A model generated the notes under the pieces. It did no database searches. It was not told the origin of the DNA and saw nothing but the letters and a program-made list of their open reading frames with translations. A DNA stretch of 64,000 bases from Methanobrevibacter millerae (GTDB taxonomy: Archaea; Methanobacteriota; Methanobacteria; Methanobacteriales; Methanobacteriaceae): assembly GCF_001477655.1 (NCBI RefSeq), contig NZ_CP011266.1:1-64000 (forward strand), in the 5' to 3' direction. The translations under genes and the position numbers were made by a program. Shown here piece after piece: positions 25,806 to 53,586 of this stretch; the first letter of the stretch is position 1; every line of letters begins with the position of its first letter.

Positions 25806-25854
25806 AGTTTAGGAAAAAAATTATTATACTAATATATTTACTTTGGTGATTTTG

Positions 25855-26634
25855 ATGATAAAAAAATTCATGATTATTATATTATTTGCATTTTTCATGA
25901 TCTCAGCAGTTTCTGCTAGTGAGATTGATGAAGCAGTATTTAGTGATCATGCTGAAGTTAAAATTCAAGAGTTCGCTAAAGTTAACCAAATTGATGTTGG
26001 AGAAGAAATTACAGTTGATGACATTGTTGAAGATGATGTTGTCATTGGGGAGGATAATCATGCTCCAACCAAATATAATCAAGAGTATAATGATTGTATA
26101 ATTAATAATCCTGAAAGTTATAACGAAATTGAAAATAATCAATATAATTATACTAATATTAAGGCTTTGATAGTTGAAACTTGGGATAATGATACGAATT
26201 TAGATTTACATGATTCAATTGTTTCTGTTCATATTTTTAATGATTTCTTAGATAATTTTGAAGTTATTTGTTGTATGAAACTTGATTCAAGTTTTAAAAT
26301 TATTCATTTTAGTCATGATTTATCTAACTTTAAAAATGAAATCAATAAGTTTAAGGTATTGACTCATGAAGATCTCATATTTTATAATAATTATTATAAT
26401 GTATTGACTTCTGATGTTGAAAAATGTATTATTTCATCAAGTGATAAATTACATACTAAATTTGCATTTTCAATTGATAATTCTGTCGTTGGTGGTGCAG
26501 ATAGTTTTATTTATAATATTTTAAATTCTAATTTTTCAAACTTTAACTCATTTTCATTGTCTTTTTTTCAAACATTTTCTAATTTTGCGATAATTTTTAA
26601 TACTAATTATTATGAATACTTTTTTTCCGAGTAA
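25855..26634 (+). CDS. Small secreted adhesin-partner protein, cassette 1
   Basis: 259 aa from ATG 25855, with RBS GGTGAT at 25845-25850. The family is not recognised. There is a signal peptide (IKKFMIIILFAFFMISAVSAS), then an acidic Asn/Asp-rich region (EITVDDIVEDDVVIGED). The most conserved block (about residues 160-235) holds FKVLTHEDLIFYNNYYNVLT and DKLHTKFAFSIDNSVVGG. The C terminus is Ser/Phe-rich (NFNSFSLSFFQTFSNF). It has no anchor or sorting tail, so it should be released or bound to something else. It lies 14 nt upstream of the adhesin. Paralogues occupy the same position at 42952 and 47607. Confidence 0.7.
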   Translation: MIKKFMIIILFAFFMISAVSASEIDEAVFSDHAEVKIQEFAKVNQIDVGEEITVDDIVEDDVVIGEDNHAPTKYNQEYNDCIINNPESYNEIENNQYNYTNIKALIVETWDNDTNLDLHDSIVSVHIFNDFLDNFEVICCMKLDSSFKIIHFSHDLSNFKNEINKFKVLTHEDLIFYNNYYNVLTSDVEKCIISSSDKLHTKFAFSIDNSVVGGADSFIYNILNSNFSNFNSFSLSFFQTFSNFAIIFNTNYYEYFFSE

Positions 26635-42907: not shown

Positions 42908-42951
42908 GATGGAAAAAATTTCTATAATATATATTGACTTTGGTGATTTCG

Positions 42952-43752
42952 ATGATAAAAAAATTCATGATTATTATATTATTTGCATTTTTCATGATTT
43001 CTGCAGTTTCTGCTAGTGAAATTAATGAAACGGCAATTAATGATCTTGCTGAATCTCAAATTCATGAATTCATTGAAGTTAATCAGATTGATATTGGGGA
43101 GGAAATAACAATTGATGATATCGTTGAAAAAGATGTTGTCATTGGGGAGGAAAATATTGCTCCAATGAAATCTAATTATGAATATAATGATTCTTATATA
43201 ATTAACAGTCATGAAAATTATAACGAAATTGAAAATAATCAATATAATAATTCCTATATTGATGCTTTGATTAACGAAAATTTGGATAATGTTACTGTTT
43301 TGGAATTAAATAATTCAATAGTTGTTCCTGTCTATATAAGTGATAATATGTTTATGAATCACTTTATTAGTTGTATGGAACTTAACTCAATTTTTGAGAC
43401 CATTGATTTTGGTGAAGGTTTATCAAAATTCAAAGATGAAATTGATAAGTTTAAAGTATTGACTCATGACGATCTTATATTTTATAATGAATATTATCAT
43501 ATATTGACTCATGATGTTGAAAAAAACATAGTATTATCAGATGATAAACTCCACACTAAATTCATGTTTTCTATAGATAATTCAATCGTGGGTAGTGCAG
43601 ATTGTTTTATTTATGGTATTTCAAATTCTATTTTTTCAAACTTTAACTCATTTTCATTGTCTTCGTTTCAAACATTTTCTAATTTTGTGCAAATTTTTAT
43701 AAATATTAATTATTATGAACATGCCTTTTTTCCAAGTAAAACAATCGAATGA
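42952..43752 (+). CDS. Small secreted adhesin-partner protein, cassette 2
   Basis: 266 aa from ATG 42952, behind RBS GGTGAT; the frame is open to 42934. It is close to the cassette 1 paralogue throughout: the same signal peptide (KKFMIIILFAFFMISAVSAS), then INQIDIGEEITIDDIVE-like VNQIDIGEEITIDDIVE, SCMELNSIFETIDF, FKVLTHDDLIFYNEYYHILT and DKLHTKFMFSIDNSIVGS, ending in a Ser/Phe-rich tail. It has no anchor or recognised domain. The adhesin gene begins 128 nt downstream, with an extra palindrome in that gap. Its function is unknown; the conserved pairing suggests it helps secretion, assembly or ligand binding of the adhesin. Confidence 0.7.
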   Translation: MIKKFMIIILFAFFMISAVSASEINETAINDLAESQIHEFIEVNQIDIGEEITIDDIVEKDVVIGEENIAPMKSNYEYNDSYIINSHENYNEIENNQYNNSYIDALINENLDNVTVLELNNSIVVPVYISDNMFMNHFISCMELNSIFETIDFGEGLSKFKDEIDKFKVLTHDDLIFYNEYYHILTHDVEKNIVLSDDKLHTKFMFSIDNSIVGSADCFIYGISNSIFSNFNSFSLSSFQTFSNFVQIFININYYEHAFFPSKTIE

Positions 43753-43880: not shown

Positions 43881-46800
43881 ATGAACAAGAATATATTTAT
43901 TTATTTATTATTTGTGCTAGTAATTTTGTCTGCTGCAGTAGGTGCAGTCAGCGCTAGCGAAAACATAACCGAACCTGCACTTTTAAGTGTTGGAGAAGGT
44001 TATATTGCTCAAGATGATACTTTAAGCTCATCGATCGAAAGTGTAGACAACAATGAGGAAGTTTTATCCTTATCAAATGAAGAAATTATAGAAGATGATA
44101 ATGGAACCTTGGCACTATCCAATGAAAAAAGTGTCGAAGATGATAATGAGGCTTTGAGCTTATCTGATGAAGATAATGCTGAAGTTTTACAGTATGGAGA
44201 ACGTGTGTATACAAAAGAGAAGGGAGCAGATCATGTTCAGTTATCTAATGGATATACAGGATATTGTATAGAAAGGGAAATGACTTTTCCACAAAAAGAT
44301 ACTGAGTATTATACAGCTCCAATAAATACTATAACTCATATTAAAAGACAGGGCGAACGTATTGATAATAAGCTAAGATTGGCTGTTGTCTATTATGGAG
44401 ACAAGCCAGGATTTGATGAAAAAATCCGTACTAATTATGCATTAAGCTTTTCTCGTACTCAACACTTAATTTGGTATTTAAGTCAATTTGACGATTATAA
44501 ACCATATGCTTTCAACAATTTGGATCCGCAATTAAAGGATGCCTATGACGATGTTATCAATAAGCATAATAGTGGACAATACTGGATAAATGAGGATTCA
44601 CATACCTTTAATAATGGTACACATGAAATAACTTATGATTTCTTATATCTCAAATCCACTAGTACCTATCAGTCATTATTTGCCTATAAGAAAACCATAA
44701 AAGAAATTCCTCAAACTCCTGAAATCCCTAAACATCCGGGCATGATAGTTGATAAGAAGTCTTTAACACCTAACGTTAAAGTTGGTGAGCAGACTAAGTT
44801 CTTGATTACTGTCACAAACACTGGTGATGTTGATTTGAGTAATGTCTTTGTTGAGGAGCAAATTCCTAACGGTTTGACCTATGCTGATTATGAAGATAAA
44901 TCATCTTGGAGAAAGGACGGTAATACTTTCTATTATAATAATGTTTTAGGTGTTGGTAAATCTGCTAGCTTTACTATTGCATTCAATACTCATATTAATG
45001 GTACTTTTGTCAACTGTGTAGTTGCAGGTTCTGATGAAACTGATAATAAGACTACCGAAAACAAGACTACTGTTAAAAAGCCAGGTATGGATGTAAATAA
45101 AAAGTCTTTAACTCCTAATGTTAAAGCTGGTGAGCAGACCAAGTTCTTGATTACTGTCTGGAATACTGGTGAGTTGGATTTAGGTAATGTTTTTGTTAAA
45201 GAGAACATGCCTGCTGATTTGGAGTATGCTGATTATACTAACAAGAATCTTTGGAGAAAAGAAGGTGACATTTTCTATTATAATAATGTCTTGAGAGTTG
45301 GTGAGTCTGCTGATTTCACAATTATTTTCAATACTAACAAGACTGGTAGCTTTACCAATGTTGTTGTTGCAGGATCCAATGAAACTGAAAACAAAACAAC
45401 TGAAAACAAGACTACTGTTAAAAAGCCAGATATGAAAGTTGAAAAGATTACCCTTGATTCTCTTGTTGTTGTGGGTGAACAGGTAACCTTTGAAATTGTA
45501 GTCAGCAATACCGGTCAAACAGATTTATCCAATGTATTCGTTGAAGAATCACAGTATGACGGATTAACATTTGACCATGCAGTGCCAAACAGACACTGGA
45601 GTGAATCCGTTGTTAACGGTAAGCACAGATGGACTTTAAATTCCAATTTGCTTGTTGGGGAAAGAATTGCTCTTAACGTAGTCTTCAATACAACCAGAAC
45701 TGGTACATTTACCAATGTTGTTGTTGCAGGTTCTGATGATACAGAAAATAAGACTACTGAAAACAAAACCAAGGTTATTGAGCCTAAATTGGACGTCGAG
45801 AAAATTACTTTAACTCCAATGGTACATGTCGGTGATAATACCTCATTTGAAATTGTTGTTAGAAACAGTGGTGACGTAATATTAACTAATGTATATGTGG
45901 AAGAAACTTCATATGAAGGTTTAACCTATGATTCATTTGTAAGAAACAGTGAATGGACTTATTCAACCGTAAACGGCAAACACAGATGGACCTTAAACAA
46001 AGAATTACATCCACATGAAGTTTCACAGTTCATTGTCATATTCAAAACAACTGAAGTTGGTACTTTCACTAATGTAGTAACTGCAGGATCAGACAACACT
46101 ACTGAAAAACCTGCTAGAAACACTACTATTGTTTACAATGAAACTCCTGAAGACCCAATGTCTAACTCAACTAGAAATCCTGATTTGAGCATTGAAAAAA
46201 TCGCTATAGAAAAACTTTTAACTGTTGGGCAAAAAGCACAATTCGAAATCGTTGTTCATAATACTGGTAATGTTGCATTATCTAAAGTAACTGTATATGA
46301 AGAATCATATACTGGTTTAACTTATGATTCATGGAATGATAACTCTGGAATGTGGTCTAAAAACAGTGATTTGAGCTGGACTTATAATGGTGTATTCTAT
46401 CCTGGAGAATATGCAACATTCTTTGTAACATTCAATACAGCTAATCCTGGAGACTTTACCAATGTTGTATCTGTTGACTCAAATGAAACTCCTAAAAAAC
46501 GTGCAAACGATAATGTTGTTGTCATTGAACCTTCATTAAGTGTTGAAAAAATCACACTTAATAATACTGTCAATTTAGGCGAGCAAGTAACATTTGAGAT
46601 TATTGTTCATAATACTGGAAGCACTGTTTTGACTAATGTTGTTGTAAGAGAAGATCAGTTTGAAGGTTTAAAATATAATTCATATGTTGATTATACAGGA
46701 AATTGGAAATACAATGGAGATTTAACCTGGACTTTAAACACTCCGTTGAAACCTGATGAATATTCCGGATTCTTTGTAGTATTTGACACTACCAGAGCCG

Positions 46801-47219
46801 GTGACTTTGTAAATATTGTTGTTGCAAAATCTAATGAAGTTCCAAAAACTCCTGCTCGCAATACTACTAAAGTTATAACTCCAGAAAATCCTGTTCCTGA
46901 GACTCCAGAAAATCCTATTCCTGAGACTCCTAGTGAACCTAGTGTTCCTGTGACTCCGGAGAATCCTGTTCCTGAGACTCCTAGTGAACCTAGTGTTCCT
47001 GTGACTCCGGAGAATCCTGTTCCTGAGACTCCTAGTGAGCCAAGTGTTCCTGTGACTCCGGAGAATCCTGTCTCTGAAACTCCTAGTGAGCCAGATAAAC
47101 CTGCAACTCCGAAAACTAAAGCACAAAGCAAAGAATTGCCTGCAACAGGTAATCCATTAGTCATGGTATTGCTTGCATTAATCGCTTTAGGAGCTGCAGG
47201 ATTGAGAAGAAAAGACTAA
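43881..47219 (+). CDS. Giant adhesin-like protein 3 with thioester-like head and LPATG tail
   Basis: 1,112 aa. After a signal peptide (LFVLVILSAAVGAVSAS) and an acidic Ser/Glu-rich spacer, residues about 104-270 form a head with GYTGYCIERE (Cys129) and RTQHLIWYL (Gln194). This arrangement matches the Y-C-phi and T-Q-x-x-phi-W signature of thioester (TQXA/TED) domains in Gram-positive adhesins. Six Ig-like repeats follow (VDKKSLTPNVKVGEQTKF and LDVEKITLTPMVHVGD types), then a Pro-rich 17-aa tandem repeat and the tail ELPATGNPLVMVLLALIAL with RRKD, an LPxTG-like sorting signal. The protein probably binds a surface covalently through the thioester; this is inference. Confidence 0.85.
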   Translation: MNKNIFIYLLFVLVILSAAVGAVSASENITEPALLSVGEGYIAQDDTLSSSIESVDNNEEVLSLSNEEIIEDDNGTLALSNEKSVEDDNEALSLSDEDNAEVLQYGERVYTKEKGADHVQLSNGYTGYCIEREMTFPQKDTEYYTAPINTITHIKRQGERIDNKLRLAVVYYGDKPGFDEKIRTNYALSFSRTQHLIWYLSQFDDYKPYAFNNLDPQLKDAYDDVINKHNSGQYWINEDSHTFNNGTHEITYDFLYLKSTSTYQSLFAYKKTIKEIPQTPEIPKHPGMIVDKKSLTPNVKVGEQTKFLITVTNTGDVDLSNVFVEEQIPNGLTYADYEDKSSWRKDGNTFYYNNVLGVGKSASFTIAFNTHINGTFVNCVVAGSDETDNKTTENKTTVKKPGMDVNKKSLTPNVKAGEQTKFLITVWNTGELDLGNVFVKENMPADLEYADYTNKNLWRKEGDIFYYNNVLRVGESADFTIIFNTNKTGSFTNVVVAGSNETENKTTENKTTVKKPDMKVEKITLDSLVVVGEQVTFEIVVSNTGQTDLSNVFVEESQYDGLTFDHAVPNRHWSESVVNGKHRWTLNSNLLVGERIALNVVFNTTRTGTFTNVVVAGSDDTENKTTENKTKVIEPKLDVEKITLTPMVHVGDNTSFEIVVRNSGDVILTNVYVEETSYEGLTYDSFVRNSEWTYSTVNGKHRWTLNKELHPHEVSQFIVIFKTTEVGTFTNVVTAGSDNTTEKPARNTTIVYNETPEDPMSNSTRNPDLSIEKIAIEKLLTVGQKAQFEIVVHNTGNVALSKVTVYEESYTGLTYDSWNDNSGMWSKNSDLSWTYNGVFYPGEYATFFVTFNTANPGDFTNVVSVDSNETPKKRANDNVVVIEPSLSVEKITLNNTVNLGEQVTFEIIVHNTGSTVLTNVVVREDQFEGLKYNSYVDYTGNWKYNGDLTWTLNTPLKPDEYSGFFVVFDTTRAGDFVNIVVAKSNEVPKTPARNTTKVITPENPVPETPENPIPETPSEPSVPVTPENPVPETPSEPSVPVTPENPVPETPSEPSVPVTPENPVSETPSEPDKPATPKTKAQSKELPATGNPLVMVLLALIALGAAGLRRKD
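46921..47100 (+). repeat. 51-bp tandem repeat encoding a Pro-rich wall spacer
   Basis: Units start at 46921, 46972, 47023 and 47074 (last one partial), each encoding a 17-residue ETPSEPSVPVTPENPVP-type segment. The repeat is nearly exact and lies just before the LPATG tail, as in Gram-positive wall-spanning regions. Copy number may vary by slippage. Confidence 0.85.
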
Positions 47220-47225
47220 ACATTA

Positions 47226-47258
47226 ATGGGAATATTTATTTTCCCATTCTTTTTTTTC
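47226..47258 (+). terminator. Terminator after adhesin 3
   Basis: ATGGGAA (47226-47232) and TTCCCAT (47241-47247) are followed by a run of T. Confidence 0.75.
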
Positions 47259-47384
47259 ATGAATTAATCATTAATTATTCATGAATAGACTATTTTTAAT
47301 ATATTGTATATTTTTTGTCAAGAATTTTATTTGCTATATTTTATTTTATCAAGTTTTTGTTTGTATTTATTCGAACAAAAATAT

Positions 47385-47559
47385 TATAACAGAGTTATAA
47401 TTTAATAATGTCTATTTTTTTAAAAATTCATTTAAAAATTGATAATATTTTATATCAAATAGACATATAAAGCATATTTTTTCATGATTTTTTTATTATT
47501 TTGTATATATTTATATATGATGAAATTTATTATAATAATTAAGCTATAAAAAATAGCTT
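47385..47559 (+). promoter_or_regulatory. Cassette 3 control region
   Basis: The best-preserved copy, in the gene-free stretch 47259-47606. It has the palindrome TATAAC-N3-GTTATA (47385-47399) and a perfect 10-bp inverted repeat ATGTCTATTT (47408-47417) / AAATAGACAT (47457-47466). The TATA element TTTATATATGATGAAA (47510-47525) follows, then a hairpin AAGCTAT-AAAAA-ATAGCTT (47541-47559) that begins about 30 nt after the TATA box. Confidence 0.7.
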
Positions 47560-47606
47560 GATTTGAAAAAAGTATTATACTAATATATAACAAAATGGTG
47601 ATTTTG

Positions 47607-48407
47607 ATGGTTAACTATAAAATAAAATATATGATTATGATTGTGTTAGCAATTTTCATGATCCAGGCGGTTTCTGCTAGTGGGATTAATGAAACAGTTA
47701 ATACAGATATGCATGAAATCATAATAGATGAAGTTACCATTGAAGAAACCACTCAAATTACTACGATAAATGAAAGATCTATGGATGATATTGATGAATG
47801 CGAAAATACTTTTAATAAAGTAACTTCGGAATATATTCGTCCAGAATCTAATAATTCAAGTATAAATTCTTTTGAAAAATCTTTTGAAGTTGAAATTTCA
47901 AGTAATCATTATGATGAAACTTATTTTGATTATGTATTGAATGATTCATTGAGTATTGATTTGGATTCAGATTTAAATGTCACAACACCTACATCTATTT
48001 ATATGGATTTTGATTTCAATAATGAATTTGAAGTTTTAATTTGTATAAAACTTGGTTATATTTTTGAATCTTACGATTTTGGCCGTTGTGTGTTTAAAGT
48101 TTATGAATTTAAGAAATCTGATATTTTAATTCATGATATTCTAGCATTTTATAATAATTATTGTCATGTTTTGACTCATGCTGTTAATAAAGACGTTGTC
48201 TTAAGCAAGGATAAATTAAATAGTAAATTTGCATATTGTATTGATAATTCAATTGTAGGTATTTCTAATGATTTATCTAACACTGTTCTTAATTCTAATT
48301 TTTCAATCTTAAGCTTTACTTATTGTATTTTTCTTATAAATTCACATTCGAATACTTTTTCACAATATTTAACAAATGATATGTATATGTCTTTTTTCAC
48401 AATTTAA
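47607..48407 (+). CDS. Small secreted adhesin-partner protein, cassette 3
   Basis: 266 aa from ATG 47607 (RBS GGTGAT at 47597-47602); an upstream ATG at 47595 overlaps that site. It is more diverged than the other two but clearly homologous: a signal peptide (KYMIMIVLAIFMIQAVSAS), an acidic middle, LICIKLGYIFESYDFG, ILAFYNNYCHVLTHAVNKDV and DKLNSKFAYCIDNSIVG. It ends at SFFTI, just before a CAATCGAATGA string that in cassette 2 is still coding, so the C terminus is a few residues shorter. No anchor, no known domain. Adhesin 4 begins 193 nt downstream. Confidence 0.7.
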   Translation: MVNYKIKYMIMIVLAIFMIQAVSASGINETVNTDMHEIIIDEVTIEETTQITTINERSMDDIDECENTFNKVTSEYIRPESNNSSINSFEKSFEVEISSNHYDETYFDYVLNDSLSIDLDSDLNVTTPTSIYMDFDFNNEFEVLICIKLGYIFESYDFGRCVFKVYEFKKSDILIHDILAFYNNYCHVLTHAVNKDVVLSKDKLNSKFAYCIDNSIVGISNDLSNTVLNSNFSILSFTYCIFLINSHSNTFSQYLTNDMYMSFFTI

Positions 48408-48563
48408 CAATCGAATGAATGAGGTATGTTAATTTATATTTAATTTAATTATGCAAAATATTCACAAATTAGTTAATAACAATCGAATGAGAGATATGTT
48501 CTTTTATAATTTAATTATTTTTGTATCGAAAAAAAAATAATCAATTTACATATCAGGTGATAT
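48406..48563 (+). repeat. Imperfect duplication and palindrome before adhesin 4
   Basis: AACAATCGAATGA occurs at about 48406 and again at 48478, each followed by similar AT-rich sequence (units of about 40 nt). Then ATATCA-GG-TGATAT at 48550-48563 repeats the element found before adhesin 3. No gene is seen in 48408-48600. Confidence 0.45.
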
Positions 48564-48600
48564 TTAGTTAAAAAAGTATATTTTTAAAATAGGGGATATT

Positions 48601-51600
48601 ATGAACAAAAAATCGATTTTTTATGGATTAATTTTATTACTCACTTTATCATTAACGTTGGGTGTAGTTTCTGCAAGTGATAATTTTGCAAATGAAACTG
48701 TTGGTGTAAGTTTAGAAACTCATGTTAATGATGTTCAATTAGAAGTGAACAATGAAGAAGTATCGAAAATGGATTCTGATACTTTATCGGACACAAAAAA
48801 AGAAAATGTATCAGAAATGGATTCTGATACTTTGTTGGAATCAAAAAATGAAGATGTTGTTTTAGAAAATGATGAATCAATTTTAGGATTAAAAAATTCA
48901 TTATCTTTAAATGATGAACTTTTAAAGTATGGTGAAATTGTAACCACTCAGACTCCAGGTCCGGATAATGTCCTTATGAGTAATGGATATACCGCTTATT
49001 GTGTTAATACAATACGTGACCCTCCGGGTGTTGGTGCTAGATATTCTGTTCAGCCAACTAGTATTGTATATCATAGTTGGAATAATAAACCTGTTTCCAA
49101 TTTAGTTAAATTGGCTATAGTTTACTATGCTGATAATCCGGCTTTTCATGATAAGATTTCTATTGGATCTGGACAAAATAGATATTCTTCACGATTGCAA
49201 CATTTAATTTGGTATTTTGCGGGTTATATTGATAGTGGTAATTATGATAATTCTGTGTATTTGAATGAGTTATATAATAAAGATAGGAATTATTTGTATT
49301 CTGCATATTTTGATATTTTCAATAGAAACAAAAATGGTGAAATGATTCCTGATCATTATACTTTCAGGTATAATAGTACTCATAATGTAACATATGATTT
49401 TGTTGCTTTTCAATCGTCATCTGATTATCAAAATCTTTTAGGTTATAAGAAGTTTTACACTACATTGCCAACTTCTTATGAAATTCAAAAAGTCACTCTC
49501 ACACCAAAAGTCCTATTAAATGATAAGGTTATTTTTGAATTAATATATAAAAATACTGGCGACATTGATTTGGACAATGTATTCATCGTTGAAGAAAATT
49601 GGGATGACGGTTTGGAATATGATTCATTTATTGACTATGGAAATATTTGGATACATTCAATCAATAATGAAGGAAAACATGTGTGGACTTTAAAAGAAAA
49701 ATTACCTGCATATACTTCTAAAAGTTTGCATGTTATTTTTAATACTTTAAAAGTTGGTAATTTTACTAATTACATCTCTTCCGGAGATAAAACAACCAAT
49801 AATACTACTACTGTTTACAATCCGGGAATGAAAGTAACCAAGAAATCTTTGACTCCTAGCGTTAAGGTGGGTGAGCAGACTTTATTCCTGATTACAGTAG
49901 AAAACACTGGCCGTATTGATTTGGGTAATGTGTTTGTTGAGGAGCAAATCCCTGATGGTTTAACTTATGCTGATTACCATGATAAGTCATTATGGAGAAA
50001 AGACGGCAATACTTTCTATTATAATAATGTTTTGAAAGTTGGCGAGTCTGCTAATTTCACAATCATTTTCAATACTCATATTAATGGTACTTTTGTTAAC
50101 TGTGTTGTTGCCGGTTCTAATGAAACTGAAAATAAGACTACTAACAACACTACTACTGTTAAAAAGCCGGGTATGGACGTTAATAAGAAGTCATTAACTC
50201 CTCGTGTGAAATCTGGTGAACAGACTAAGTTCCTGATTACTGTTTGGAATACTGGTGAAATAGATTTAGGCAATGTTTTCGTTAAAGAAACTATGCCTGC
50301 TGATTTGGAATATGCTGATTATACCAATAAGAATCTTTGGAGAAAAGATGGAGATATCTTCTATTACAATAATATTTTAAAAGTGGGAGAATCTGCTAAT
50401 TTTACAATCATTTTTAATACTAATAAGACTGGTAGCTTTACTAATTGTGTAGTTGCTGGATCTAATGAAACTGAAAATAAAACTACTGAAAATAATACTA
50501 CTGTCTACAAACCAGGTATGGAAGTTACTAAAATTAGTTTAACTCCTAACGTTAAAGTAGGCGAACAAACATTGTTCATGATTATCGTTAAAAACACTGG
50601 CGATGTTGATTTAGGCAATGTGTTTGTTGAAGAGCAAATCCCTGATGGTTTAACATTCGCAGATTATAATGATAAAACAAAATGGGGAAGAAATGGAAAC
50701 ATATACACTTATTTAAGTGATTTAAAAGTTGGTGAATCTGCTAACTTTACTATTGCGTTTAATACTCATGTTAATGGTACTTTTGTTAACTGTGTAGTTG
50801 CTGGTTCTAATGAAACAGACAATAAGACCACTAATAATACTACTACTGTTAAAAAGCCAAACATGGAAGTAACTAAAAAGTCTTTAACTCCTAGCGTAAA
50901 TGTCGGAGAGCAGACTTTGTTCTTGATTACTGTAAGAAATACTGGTGAAATCGATTTGGGTAATGTGTTTGTTGAAGAGCAAATTCCTGACGGTTTGACT
51001 TACGCTGATTACACTGATAAGACTCAATGGAGAAAAGTTGGTAATATATTCTATTACAATAATATTTTGAAAGTTGGTGAATCTGCTAACTTTACTATTG
51101 CGTTTAATACTCATGTTAATGGTACTTTTGTTAACTGTGTAGTTGCTGGTTCTAATGAAACTGAAAATAAGACTACTAACAACACCACTACTGTTAAAAA
51201 GCCAAATATGGATGTTAAAAAGATTAGTGAAACTCAGCATGTTTATGTTGGAGATAAAGCAATATTCACTATTGTTGTTACAAACACCGGTGAATTGGAT
51301 TTAACTAATGTATTTGTTAAAGAACAAATCCCTGATGGATTAACCTACCTTTCATTTAATGGTAGAAACTGGAATAAGGTTGGTGATGTTTTTAACTATA
51401 ATGGTATATTAGCTCCAGGTGCAGACGCTTCATTTAACATTGCATTCAATACAACCAGAACTGGTACTTTTACTAATGTTGTTGTTGCAGGTTCTGATAA
51501 AACTGAAAATAAGACTACTAACAATACTACTACTGTATATAAGCCTGATTTGAAGGTTGAAAAAATCACTATCGACCCTATTGTTGTTGTAGGCGATCAG

Positions 51601-53586
51601 GTAAGATTTGAAATTGTAGTTAGCAATATTGGTCAAAAAGCTTTATCTAATGTGTTCATAGAAGAATCACAGTATGATGGCTTAACATTTGACCATGCAA
51701 TAATTAATGGTCACTGGAGTGAATCTGTTGTTAACGGTAAGCACATATGGACTTTAAATTCCAATTTGCTTGTTGGTGAAAAAATCGCTCTTAATGTGGT
51801 CTTCAACACTACCAGAACAGGTACATTTACCAATGTTGTTGTGGCTGGTTCTAATGAGACTGAAAACAAGACCACAGAAAACAAGACTAAAGTTGTAGAG
51901 CCAAAATTGGACGTTCAAAAGATTACTTTAACTCCGATGGTTCATGTCGGTGATAAAACTTCATTTGAAATTGTTGTAAGAAATACTGGCGATGTAAAGT
52001 TAACTAATGTATATGTGGAAGAAACCTCATATGCTGGTTTAACCTATGATTCTTTTGTCAAAAACTCTGAATGGACTTATTCAACTGTAAACGGTAAGCA
52101 CAGATGGACATTAAATAAAGTGTTGTATCCTCATGAAGTTTCACAGTTCATTGTCGTATTCAACACTACTGAAGTTGGTACATTTACAAATGTTGTAACT
52201 GCAGGATCAGATAACACTCCTGAAAAACCTGCTGAGAATACAACAATCGTATATAACGAAACTCCAGAAGATCCAATGTCCAATTCAACTAGAAATCCGG
52301 ATTTGTCTATTGAAAAAGTAGCTTTAGATAAACTTTTAGTTGTTGGCCAAAAAGCTCAATTTGAAATCATCGTTCAAAATACTGGAAACGTTGCTTTATC
52401 AAAAGTTACTGTTTATGAAGAATCATTTGATGGTTTAACTTATGATTCATGGGAAGACTTCTCTGGCATGTGGAGTAAAAACAGTGATTTAAGCTGGACT
52501 TACAATGATATTTTATATCCGGGAGAATATGCATCATTCTTTGTAACATTCAATACAAATAGAATAGGTGATTTCAATAATATTGTATCTGTTGACTCAA
52601 ATGAAACTTCTAAAAAACGTGCAAACGATAATGTTATTGTTATTGCCTCTTCATTGAGTGTTGAAAAAATTACTCTTAATAAAACAGTTAATTTGGGCGA
52701 ACAAGTAACATTTGAGATTATTGTTCATAATACAGGCAGCACGGATTTAACTAATGTTGTTGTAAGAGAAGACCAATTTGAAGGTTTAAAATATAGTTCA
52801 TTTGTAGATTATACTGGAAATTGGAAGTACAACGGTGATTTAACCTGGACTTTAACAAATCCATTGAAAGCGGGTGAATACTCCGGATTCTTTGTAGTAT
52901 TTGATACTACTCGTGCCGGTGACTTTGTAAACGTTGTTGTTGCAAAATCTAATGAGGTTCCAGAAACTCCTGCTCACAACAACACAAAAGTTATAACTCC
53001 TGAAAACCCGTCTTACAACCCTTCAATGACTGTTGACAAATACACTATCAACAGAACTGTTTATTTGGGTGAACAGACCATGTTTGAAATTGTTGTAAGA
53101 AACACTGGTGACGTTGACTTGAAAGATGTATTTGTAATTGAAGCATACTTCGACCAAGGTTTAACTTACAGTTCATTCTATCCAACAAAAGGCATATGGA
53201 CTCATATAATTAATAATCAAAATTTCGATCAATTTAATTTAAGAGGAACATTGAGAGTTGGAGAATCTGCAAGTTTTATTGTAGTATTTGATACTTCAAG
53301 TGAAGGCTTAAAAACTAACATCGTTACGGCTGGATATGACAACACTGTTTATGTGAATTCATATAATGAAACTGAAGTAATTTATAAGCATGTTCCTGAA
53401 ATTCCACTCATTGAAATTCCTGAGGAACCTGGTAAACCAGTAAACAATGAAACTCCTGATGAGCCAGCTAAACCGGTTACTCCAGAACCACAAAACAACG
53501 AATTGCCTGCAACCGGTAATCCATTAGTCATGGTATTGCTTGCATTAATCGCTTTAGGGGCTGCAGGATTGAGAAGAAAAGACTAA
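48601..53586 (+). CDS. Giant adhesin-like protein 4 with thioester-like head and LPATG tail
   Basis: 1,661 aa. Signal peptide and first 50 residues (LLLTLSLTLGVVSASDNFAN) closely match adhesin 1, but the head (about residues 109-285) is of the adhesin 3 type: GYTAYCVNT (Cys134) and RLQHLIWYF (Gln200), the candidate thioester pair. Eleven Ig-like repeats of about 110-120 aa follow (VTKKSLTPSVKVGEQTLF and LDVQKITLTPMVHVGDKT types), longer than in any other adhesin here. A Pro-rich segment (EIPEEPGKPVNNETPDEPAK) leads to ELPATGNPLVMVLLALIAL with RRKD. The protein is therefore a mosaic of parts shared with the other adhesins. Confidence 0.85.
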   Translation: MNKKSIFYGLILLLTLSLTLGVVSASDNFANETVGVSLETHVNDVQLEVNNEEVSKMDSDTLSDTKKENVSEMDSDTLLESKNEDVVLENDESILGLKNSLSLNDELLKYGEIVTTQTPGPDNVLMSNGYTAYCVNTIRDPPGVGARYSVQPTSIVYHSWNNKPVSNLVKLAIVYYADNPAFHDKISIGSGQNRYSSRLQHLIWYFAGYIDSGNYDNSVYLNELYNKDRNYLYSAYFDIFNRNKNGEMIPDHYTFRYNSTHNVTYDFVAFQSSSDYQNLLGYKKFYTTLPTSYEIQKVTLTPKVLLNDKVIFELIYKNTGDIDLDNVFIVEENWDDGLEYDSFIDYGNIWIHSINNEGKHVWTLKEKLPAYTSKSLHVIFNTLKVGNFTNYISSGDKTTNNTTTVYNPGMKVTKKSLTPSVKVGEQTLFLITVENTGRIDLGNVFVEEQIPDGLTYADYHDKSLWRKDGNTFYYNNVLKVGESANFTIIFNTHINGTFVNCVVAGSNETENKTTNNTTTVKKPGMDVNKKSLTPRVKSGEQTKFLITVWNTGEIDLGNVFVKETMPADLEYADYTNKNLWRKDGDIFYYNNILKVGESANFTIIFNTNKTGSFTNCVVAGSNETENKTTENNTTVYKPGMEVTKISLTPNVKVGEQTLFMIIVKNTGDVDLGNVFVEEQIPDGLTFADYNDKTKWGRNGNIYTYLSDLKVGESANFTIAFNTHVNGTFVNCVVAGSNETDNKTTNNTTTVKKPNMEVTKKSLTPSVNVGEQTLFLITVRNTGEIDLGNVFVEEQIPDGLTYADYTDKTQWRKVGNIFYYNNILKVGESANFTIAFNTHVNGTFVNCVVAGSNETENKTTNNTTTVKKPNMDVKKISETQHVYVGDKAIFTIVVTNTGELDLTNVFVKEQIPDGLTYLSFNGRNWNKVGDVFNYNGILAPGADASFNIAFNTTRTGTFTNVVVAGSDKTENKTTNNTTTVYKPDLKVEKITIDPIVVVGDQVRFEIVVSNIGQKALSNVFIEESQYDGLTFDHAIINGHWSESVVNGKHIWTLNSNLLVGEKIALNVVFNTTRTGTFTNVVVAGSNETENKTTENKTKVVEPKLDVQKITLTPMVHVGDKTSFEIVVRNTGDVKLTNVYVEETSYAGLTYDSFVKNSEWTYSTVNGKHRWTLNKVLYPHEVSQFIVVFNTTEVGTFTNVVTAGSDNTPEKPAENTTIVYNETPEDPMSNSTRNPDLSIEKVALDKLLVVGQKAQFEIIVQNTGNVALSKVTVYEESFDGLTYDSWEDFSGMWSKNSDLSWTYNDILYPGEYASFFVTFNTNRIGDFNNIVSVDSNETSKKRANDNVIVIASSLSVEKITLNKTVNLGEQVTFEIIVHNTGSTDLTNVVVREDQFEGLKYSSFVDYTGNWKYNGDLTWTLTNPLKAGEYSGFFVVFDTTRAGDFVNVVVAKSNEVPETPAHNNTKVITPENPSYNPSMTVDKYTINRTVYLGEQTMFEIVVRNTGDVDLKDVFVIEAYFDQGLTYSSFYPTKGIWTHIINNQNFDQFNLRGTLRVGESASFIVVFDTSSEGLKTNIVTAGYDNTVYVNSYNETEVIYKHVPEIPLIEIPEEPGKPVNNETPDEPAKPVTPEPQNNELPATGNPLVMVLLALIALGAAGLRRKD

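Follow-up and report, generated by a model that had tools for sequence, protein, structure and literature searches.

Introduction

Thioester domains (TEDs) have been reported 'exclusively in Gram-positive bacteria' (PMC4450167). Solved TED structures show the thioester between the Cys of a [YFL]C-Phi-zeta motif and a later Gln located within Phi-Q-zeta-Phi-Phi on strand Q; TQxxPhiW is a helix motif, and its Gln and Trp were demonstrated via mutagenesis not to be essential for the bond (PMC4450167, PMC6194298). The Gram-positive thioester-isopeptide-ester (TIE) adhesins combine a TED with a tandem isopeptide-type stalk, a Pro-rich region and an LPXTG-type tail. In 2025, DUF11 was identified as the isopeptide domain CLIPPER, which has a Lys-Asp-Asn triad (PMC12617251).

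Among archaea, the alpha2-macroglobulin/TEP-type proteins of Halobacteria and Methanomicrobia (PMC8416519) share with the proteins described here a predicted internal thioester, but their CxEQ motif, in which Cys and Gln lie three residues apart, is unrelated. A single LPxTG adhesin has been reported in M. ruminantium M1 (PMC2812497). A search across 5.39 million open papers yielded no report of a TED-type domain in archaea, and in the methanogen-adhesin and genome papers searched these proteins were not linked to thioesters or thioester domains.

Organization of the adhesin 3 and adhesin 4 genes

The window, i.e., the whole stretch of DNA analyzed (64,000 nucleotides), corresponds to bases 1-64000 of the chromosome of Methanobrevibacter millerae SM9, a pseudomurein-walled methanogen of the rumen, whose chromosome is a single contig of 2,543,538 bp (PMC4987999). 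The genes of adhesin 3 (43881..47219, 1112 aa) and adhesin 4 (48601..53586, 1661 aa), like all of their features given below, are on the + strand. Both ORFs were recovered where the earlier note had placed them, and the relatedness of their heads was confirmed (39% identity). The two proteins have the same architecture: a probable signal peptide, a thioester-domain head (aa 96-280, 44166..44720 in adhesin 3; aa 100-292, 48898..49476 in adhesin 4), a stalk of DUF11/CLIPPER repeats, a Pro-rich spacer and an ELPATG tail. The hydrophobic N-termini ending with ...VSAS were read directly off the sequence.

Immediately upstream of each of adhesins 3, 1 and 4, a secreted protein of approximately 270 aa is encoded (at 42934-43752, 25843-26634 and 47595-48407, respectively), and the three are paralogues. 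The other two show 67% and 39% identity to the first, and none was assigned to a Pfam or NCBIfam family. An orthologue (68%) in a relative is also encoded directly upstream of a thioester adhesin, which suggests that the secreted protein and the adhesin form a conserved gene pair.

The heads resemble bacterial thioester domains

The trimmed head of adhesin 3 matched the Pfam TED profile PF08341 with 28.5 bits (E=2.2e-6), above the gathering cut-off of 22 bits, and this match did not surface when the full-length 1112-aa protein was scanned. Adhesin 4 stayed below the cut-off, with 14.1 bits at full length and 18.0 bits after trimming. In the Pfam scan, 17 of 25 archaeal heads matched TED at E<=1, with most single-sequence scores below the cut-off; the NCBIfam TQXA model (TIGR03934) was weakly matched by six family members.

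Searches of the PDB with the family profiles placed TEDs at the top. The best match was 4c0z (E=1.1e-4 and 2.6e-5); 5dcq, 5a0l, 5a0d and 5a0g came next (E 0.1-0.3). The Cys, the TQxxIW and the late Gln of the archaeal heads aligned on the corresponding motifs of 4c0z. Searching the PDB with a single sequence returned no TED, and the profile-profile comparison (hhalign) with nine clostridial TEDs, mostly of Class II, gave a weak result (59% probability). The Pfam TED profile run against the genome DNA found no match, but the control was equally silent, so this search was uninformative.

Only seven columns were invariant in the alignment of 25 heads (A2); three of them hold the Cys, the TQ-motif Trp and the late Gln within Q[NSKT][FLY][FL]. 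All three TED motifs were present in the archaeal heads in the correct order and with the correct spacing: [YFL]C-Phi-zeta as YCIE in adhesin 3 and YCVN in adhesin 4, TQxxPhiW as TQHLIW and LQHLIW, and Phi-Q-zeta-Phi-Phi as YQSLF and YQNLL. The likeness of the heads to TEDs exceeds chance. What the earlier note had claimed, a methanogen protein that combines a thioester domain of Gram-positive type with a stalk and an LPXTG-like tail, was right in kind.

AlphaFold2 modelled the adhesin-3 head with pLDDT 87.3 and pTM 0.85, and a short member from the same genome with pLDDT 94.3 and pTM 0.90. The modelled order of elements is four short strands, the third of which ends with the Cys, a helix, the TQ helix, another helix and a beta-hairpin with the Gln beside its last strand. 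In the adhesin-3 model the Cys is in strand 31-34, helix 97-108 begins at the TQ motif and the late Gln is just ahead of strand 171-180. As far as the model goes, this order matches the published TED order minus the beta-sandwich of Class II. At the level of the fold, support from Foldseek was between weak and absent: for the adhesin-3 model the top three PDB matches were all TEDs, though weak (E 0.02-0.04, TMq 0.29-0.45), and for the higher-confidence model of the short member no TED was found. The Foldseek search against viral models gave no match.

Among the described classes, Class I TEDs (PF08341; TQXA, TIGR03934; Cpa TED2, 4C0Z; SfbI, 5A0L; CpTIE, 5A0G) share with adhesins 3 and 4 the three motifs in order, a comparable layout with the domain N-terminal on a stalk, and the lack of a long insertion ahead of the last hairpin. 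The spacing between Cys and late Gln is 135 and 143 residues in adhesins 3 and 4, versus 152 in SfbI and 129 in CpTIE. The archaeal domains differ from Class I in their source outside the reported Gram-positive range, low identity, internal position in some copies, the absence of a clear alpha0 helix in the model and weak Foldseek similarity. Class II TEDs (BaTIE, 6FWV; EfmTIE86, 6FWY) have the three motifs in common and were the top Foldseek matches to the adhesin-3 model, whereas the archaeal domain is of only about 185 aa and its model is devoid of the 75-residue beta-sandwich insertion.

The missing Foldseek match for the better model and the mostly subthreshold single-sequence Pfam scores would fit an archaeal surface domain with no relation to TEDs, in which the Cys is free or in a disulfide and the motifs arose by convergence. 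We regard this as improbable: TEDs came first in the Pfam and PDB sequence-profile searches, and the motif combination in its right order recurs in clostridial relatives. Moreover, a single ectodomain Cys was present in 20 of the 28 short (<=542 aa) members scanned, so in most of them there is no disulfide partner and a disulfide is unlikely. Adhesin 3 has one other Cys, at position 379 in the stalk.

The late glutamine is the predicted partner of the cysteine

The motifs and residue numbers of the earlier note were exact: Cys129 (44265..44267) and Gln194 (44460..44462) of adhesin 3 are 65 residues apart, and Cys134 (49000..49002) and Gln200 (49198..49200) of adhesin 4 are 66 residues apart. 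Its assignment of the thioester to these pairs was wrong. The predicted bonds, judging from the alignments, are Cys129-Gln264 (YCI...YQSLF; Gln264 at 44670..44672) and Cys134-Gln277 (YCV...YQNLL; Gln277 at 49429..49431). Both the Cys and Gln264 are invariant in A2, and Gln264 aligned to the QNLL of 4c0z, 5dcq and 5a0l; the assignment in adhesin 4 follows the alignment and the PDB profile match.

Among 60 non-redundant homologues, 50 had both the Cys and the late Gln, two had the Cys only, none had the Gln only and eight had neither. The Gln of the TQ motif was kept in only 32 of the 50 homologues with Cys and Gln; another 17 have S, T, H, A, R, N or F at this position and one has a gap there. 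It is therefore variable across the archaeal family, as in bacterial TEDs. Hence, the late Gln tracks the Cys, and Gln194/Gln200, predicted to be non-bonding, does not. The conserved 65-66-residue spacing of the Cys129/Gln194-type pair in both adhesins is what speaks for a thioester at the TQHLIW motif, a version that we consider hardly credible in view of these counts and of the solved TEDs, in which this Gln does not form the bond and its mutation leaves the thioester in place (PMC4450167, PMC6194298). Because the bonding Gln is predicted to be the late one, the distance from the Cys to Gln194, which had been offered as a refutation test, concerns the wrong residue, and the correction changes which residue should be mutated.

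The co-occurrence of Cys and late Gln has to be read with the tree. The relatives lacking both residues form essentially one clade (100/98 support), so their joint loss represents approximately one main evolutionary event rather than eight, and for this reason the Fisher p-value of the co-occurrence is no evidence. Within the larger clade around these relatives, some members retain the Cys with the Gln lost.

Predicted isopeptide-type stalks

The stalks of adhesin 3 (44748..46880) and adhesin 4 (49477..53391) strongly matched PF01345 (DUF11) in 6 and 11 stretches, respectively. The repeats had been described as Ig-like; the repeat stalk itself stands, with DUF11/CLIPPER as its more precise identity. 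As in CLIPPER (PMC12617251), most of the repeats contain a Lys, an acidic residue at +33 and an Asn at +86 to +90. The acidic residue is usually Glu, so the triad is mostly Lys-Glu-Asn instead of Lys-Asp-Asn. Since Lys and Asn are kept together with the usual Glu at +33, the formation of isopeptide bonds in these predicted isopeptide domains is plausible from the residues present. The survey of DUF11/CLIPPER proteins found recognizable partner domains rarely in archaea (PMC12617251), whereas here the partner head domain was identified.

Apart from the head Cys, the cysteines of adhesins 3 and 4 occur only in FVNCVVAG-type stalk motifs (e.g., aa 379, 501, 616, 731 and 846). This Cys is situated one residue past the Asn of the would-be CLIPPER isopeptide bond.

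The tails and the genomic sortase

A Pro/Glu-rich repeat spacer in adhesin 3 (46881..47132) and a Pro-rich spacer in adhesin 4 (53392..53499) lead to the sorting-like tails (47133..47216, with the TGNP site at 47145, and 53500..53583, with the TGNP site at 53512). Both tails consist of ELPATGNP, a hydrophobic helix and RRKD. Their sequence, ELPATGNPLVMVLLALIALGAAGLRRKD, contains the LPXTG motif, the hydrophobic helix and the basic end. The Pfam Gram_pos_anchor profile PF00746 did not reach significance for either tail (13.6 and 10.4 bits, E=0.065 and 0.7, cut-off 20). Of the LPXTG-type tail noted earlier, the layout was retained, but not a Pfam-significant anchor.

A search of the genome for a sortase, also proposed beforehand, identified a single gene (C1:2130958-2131680, 240 aa, PF04203 with 56.7 bits). 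The motifs GHRT, LITCDP and ENRLII supply the catalytic His, Cys and Arg.

The subthreshold Gram_pos_anchor scores leave some room for a tail that is no sortase substrate but anchors the protein in the membrane or is recognized by another sorting enzyme, and most tails in the family read x-T-G-N-P or x-T-G without LP. This seems to us a possible reading, though the less probable one, given that the genome encodes a single sortase with His, Cys and Arg and that adhesins 3 and 4 and an M. ruminantium M1 relative carry the full LPATG/LPRTG, hydrophobic stretch and basic end.

Across the genome, the T-G-N-P(L/I) tail pattern had 19 sites versus none for the reversed control. These sites likely mark a set of tail-sorted surface proteins, including adhesins 1 and 2 of the window, whose tails have PATGNP and not LPATG.

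Distribution and paralogues of the domain

Searches with a two-sequence alignment detected heads in 40 of the 139 genomes of the family. In Methanobacteriota, there was a match in 73 of 152 genomes and in 4 of 20 genera, a count which includes the paralogue lacking Cys and Gln. The head domain belongs to a large archaeal family that is apparently undescribed.

The genome of M. millerae SM9 contains six copies with Cys and Gln and one without them near C1:1654500. The six are adhesins 3 and 4, a 533-aa protein (C1:490408-492009) and three adhesins of approximately 2000 aa, all with the T-G-N-P tail. In the three large adhesins the domain is not at the tip but is flanked by a beta-helix-like region on one side and the DUF11 stalk on the other. 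The paralogue clade without the Cys and the late Gln (GFILDY...NESDYFAYK) comprises nine further loci besides the copy near 1654500. Next to the TED gene, several genomes have a further, divergent TED-like gene; its late Gln is changed to Ser with a Cys two residues on (SDCLAYK), and the first Cys is kept in some of these genes and lost in others.

Both the internal position of these three copies and the persistence of a paralogue clade without Cys or Gln, a sign that the scaffold can serve a purpose even when the bond is absent, bear on how the domain works. The heads might be genuine TED homologues in which the thioester is an internal clamp or mechanical fuse, or which bind non-covalently, with no covalent capture of a partner; such capture has been proven for few TEDs only, e.g., SfbI and FbaB (PMC4450167). 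We consider this role rather unlikely, as almost every other lineage has kept Cys and late Gln even though the rest of the domain has diverged to 20-25% identity.

A giant ORF in one relative (L173) contains two thioester-like domains, each with a [YF]C motif and a late RQNLIL, and ends with ELPRTGNP...RRKRE; it may correspond to the one LPxTG adhesin described in M. ruminantium M1 (PMC2812497). In another genus of the family, a thioester-like head was found on a 692-aa protein of YYTNKTIQEPYNTTET-type repeats (L170, L171).

Among Clostridia, similar domains were genuine but rare, occurring in 3 of 391 sampled genomes, and showed the same combination of three motifs. Misbinning of archaeal DNA as the source of two clostridial contigs (L046/L047) was rejected on the basis of their content: one TED ORF has an FtsK/SpoIIIE-type gene as its neighbour and the other ends with a bacterial VPQTG-type tail. 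No relatives were found in viral contigs and plasmids. A transfer of the domain between archaea and bacteria is likely, and the tree leaves its direction unsettled.

Proposed mode of action and meaning

With DUF11 now known as the isopeptide domain CLIPPER, adhesins 3 and 4 appear as archaeal counterparts of the Gram-positive TIE adhesins, with a predicted thioester at the tip, a CLIPPER stalk, a sortase-anchored tail and covalent capture of a partner. We assign this reading a probability of roughly 0.74. The adhesins differ from Gram-positive TIE proteins in the DUF11/CLIPPER nature of the stalk, in which Glu mostly replaces the catalytic Asp, and in the pseudomurein wall; no ester domain was found in adhesins 3 and 4.

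Each adhesin would form a fibre that is secreted and tipped with a minimal thioester domain, borne on the DUF11/CLIPPER stalk and Pro-rich spacer, and the LPATG-type tail of the fibre would presumably be attached to the pseudomurein wall by the single sortase of the genome. In the folded head, Cys129 (Cys134) and Gln264 (Gln277) would form a buried thioester with the loss of ammonia. A nucleophile on the surface of a partner, most simply a Lys amine, could then attack the thioester, which would leave an isopeptide bond between the partner and the Gln. Thioester formation, the reaction with a partner, the nature of this partner and the anchoring of the tail are what we infer from the architecture, the TED homology, the linked conservation of Cys and late Gln, and the existence of a sortase gene.

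A more speculative idea, which we hold to be doubtful at present, is that the thioester adhesins of gut methanogens bind covalently to their H2-producing bacterial or protozoal partners. If true, inter-domain hydrogen transfer in the rumen would be partly held together by covalent bonds. The finding widens from two adhesins to the methanogen family, and with a conserved pair of predicted bond-forming residues across gut methanogens, attachment to hydrogen producers or host surfaces becomes testable with one protein and one mass measurement.
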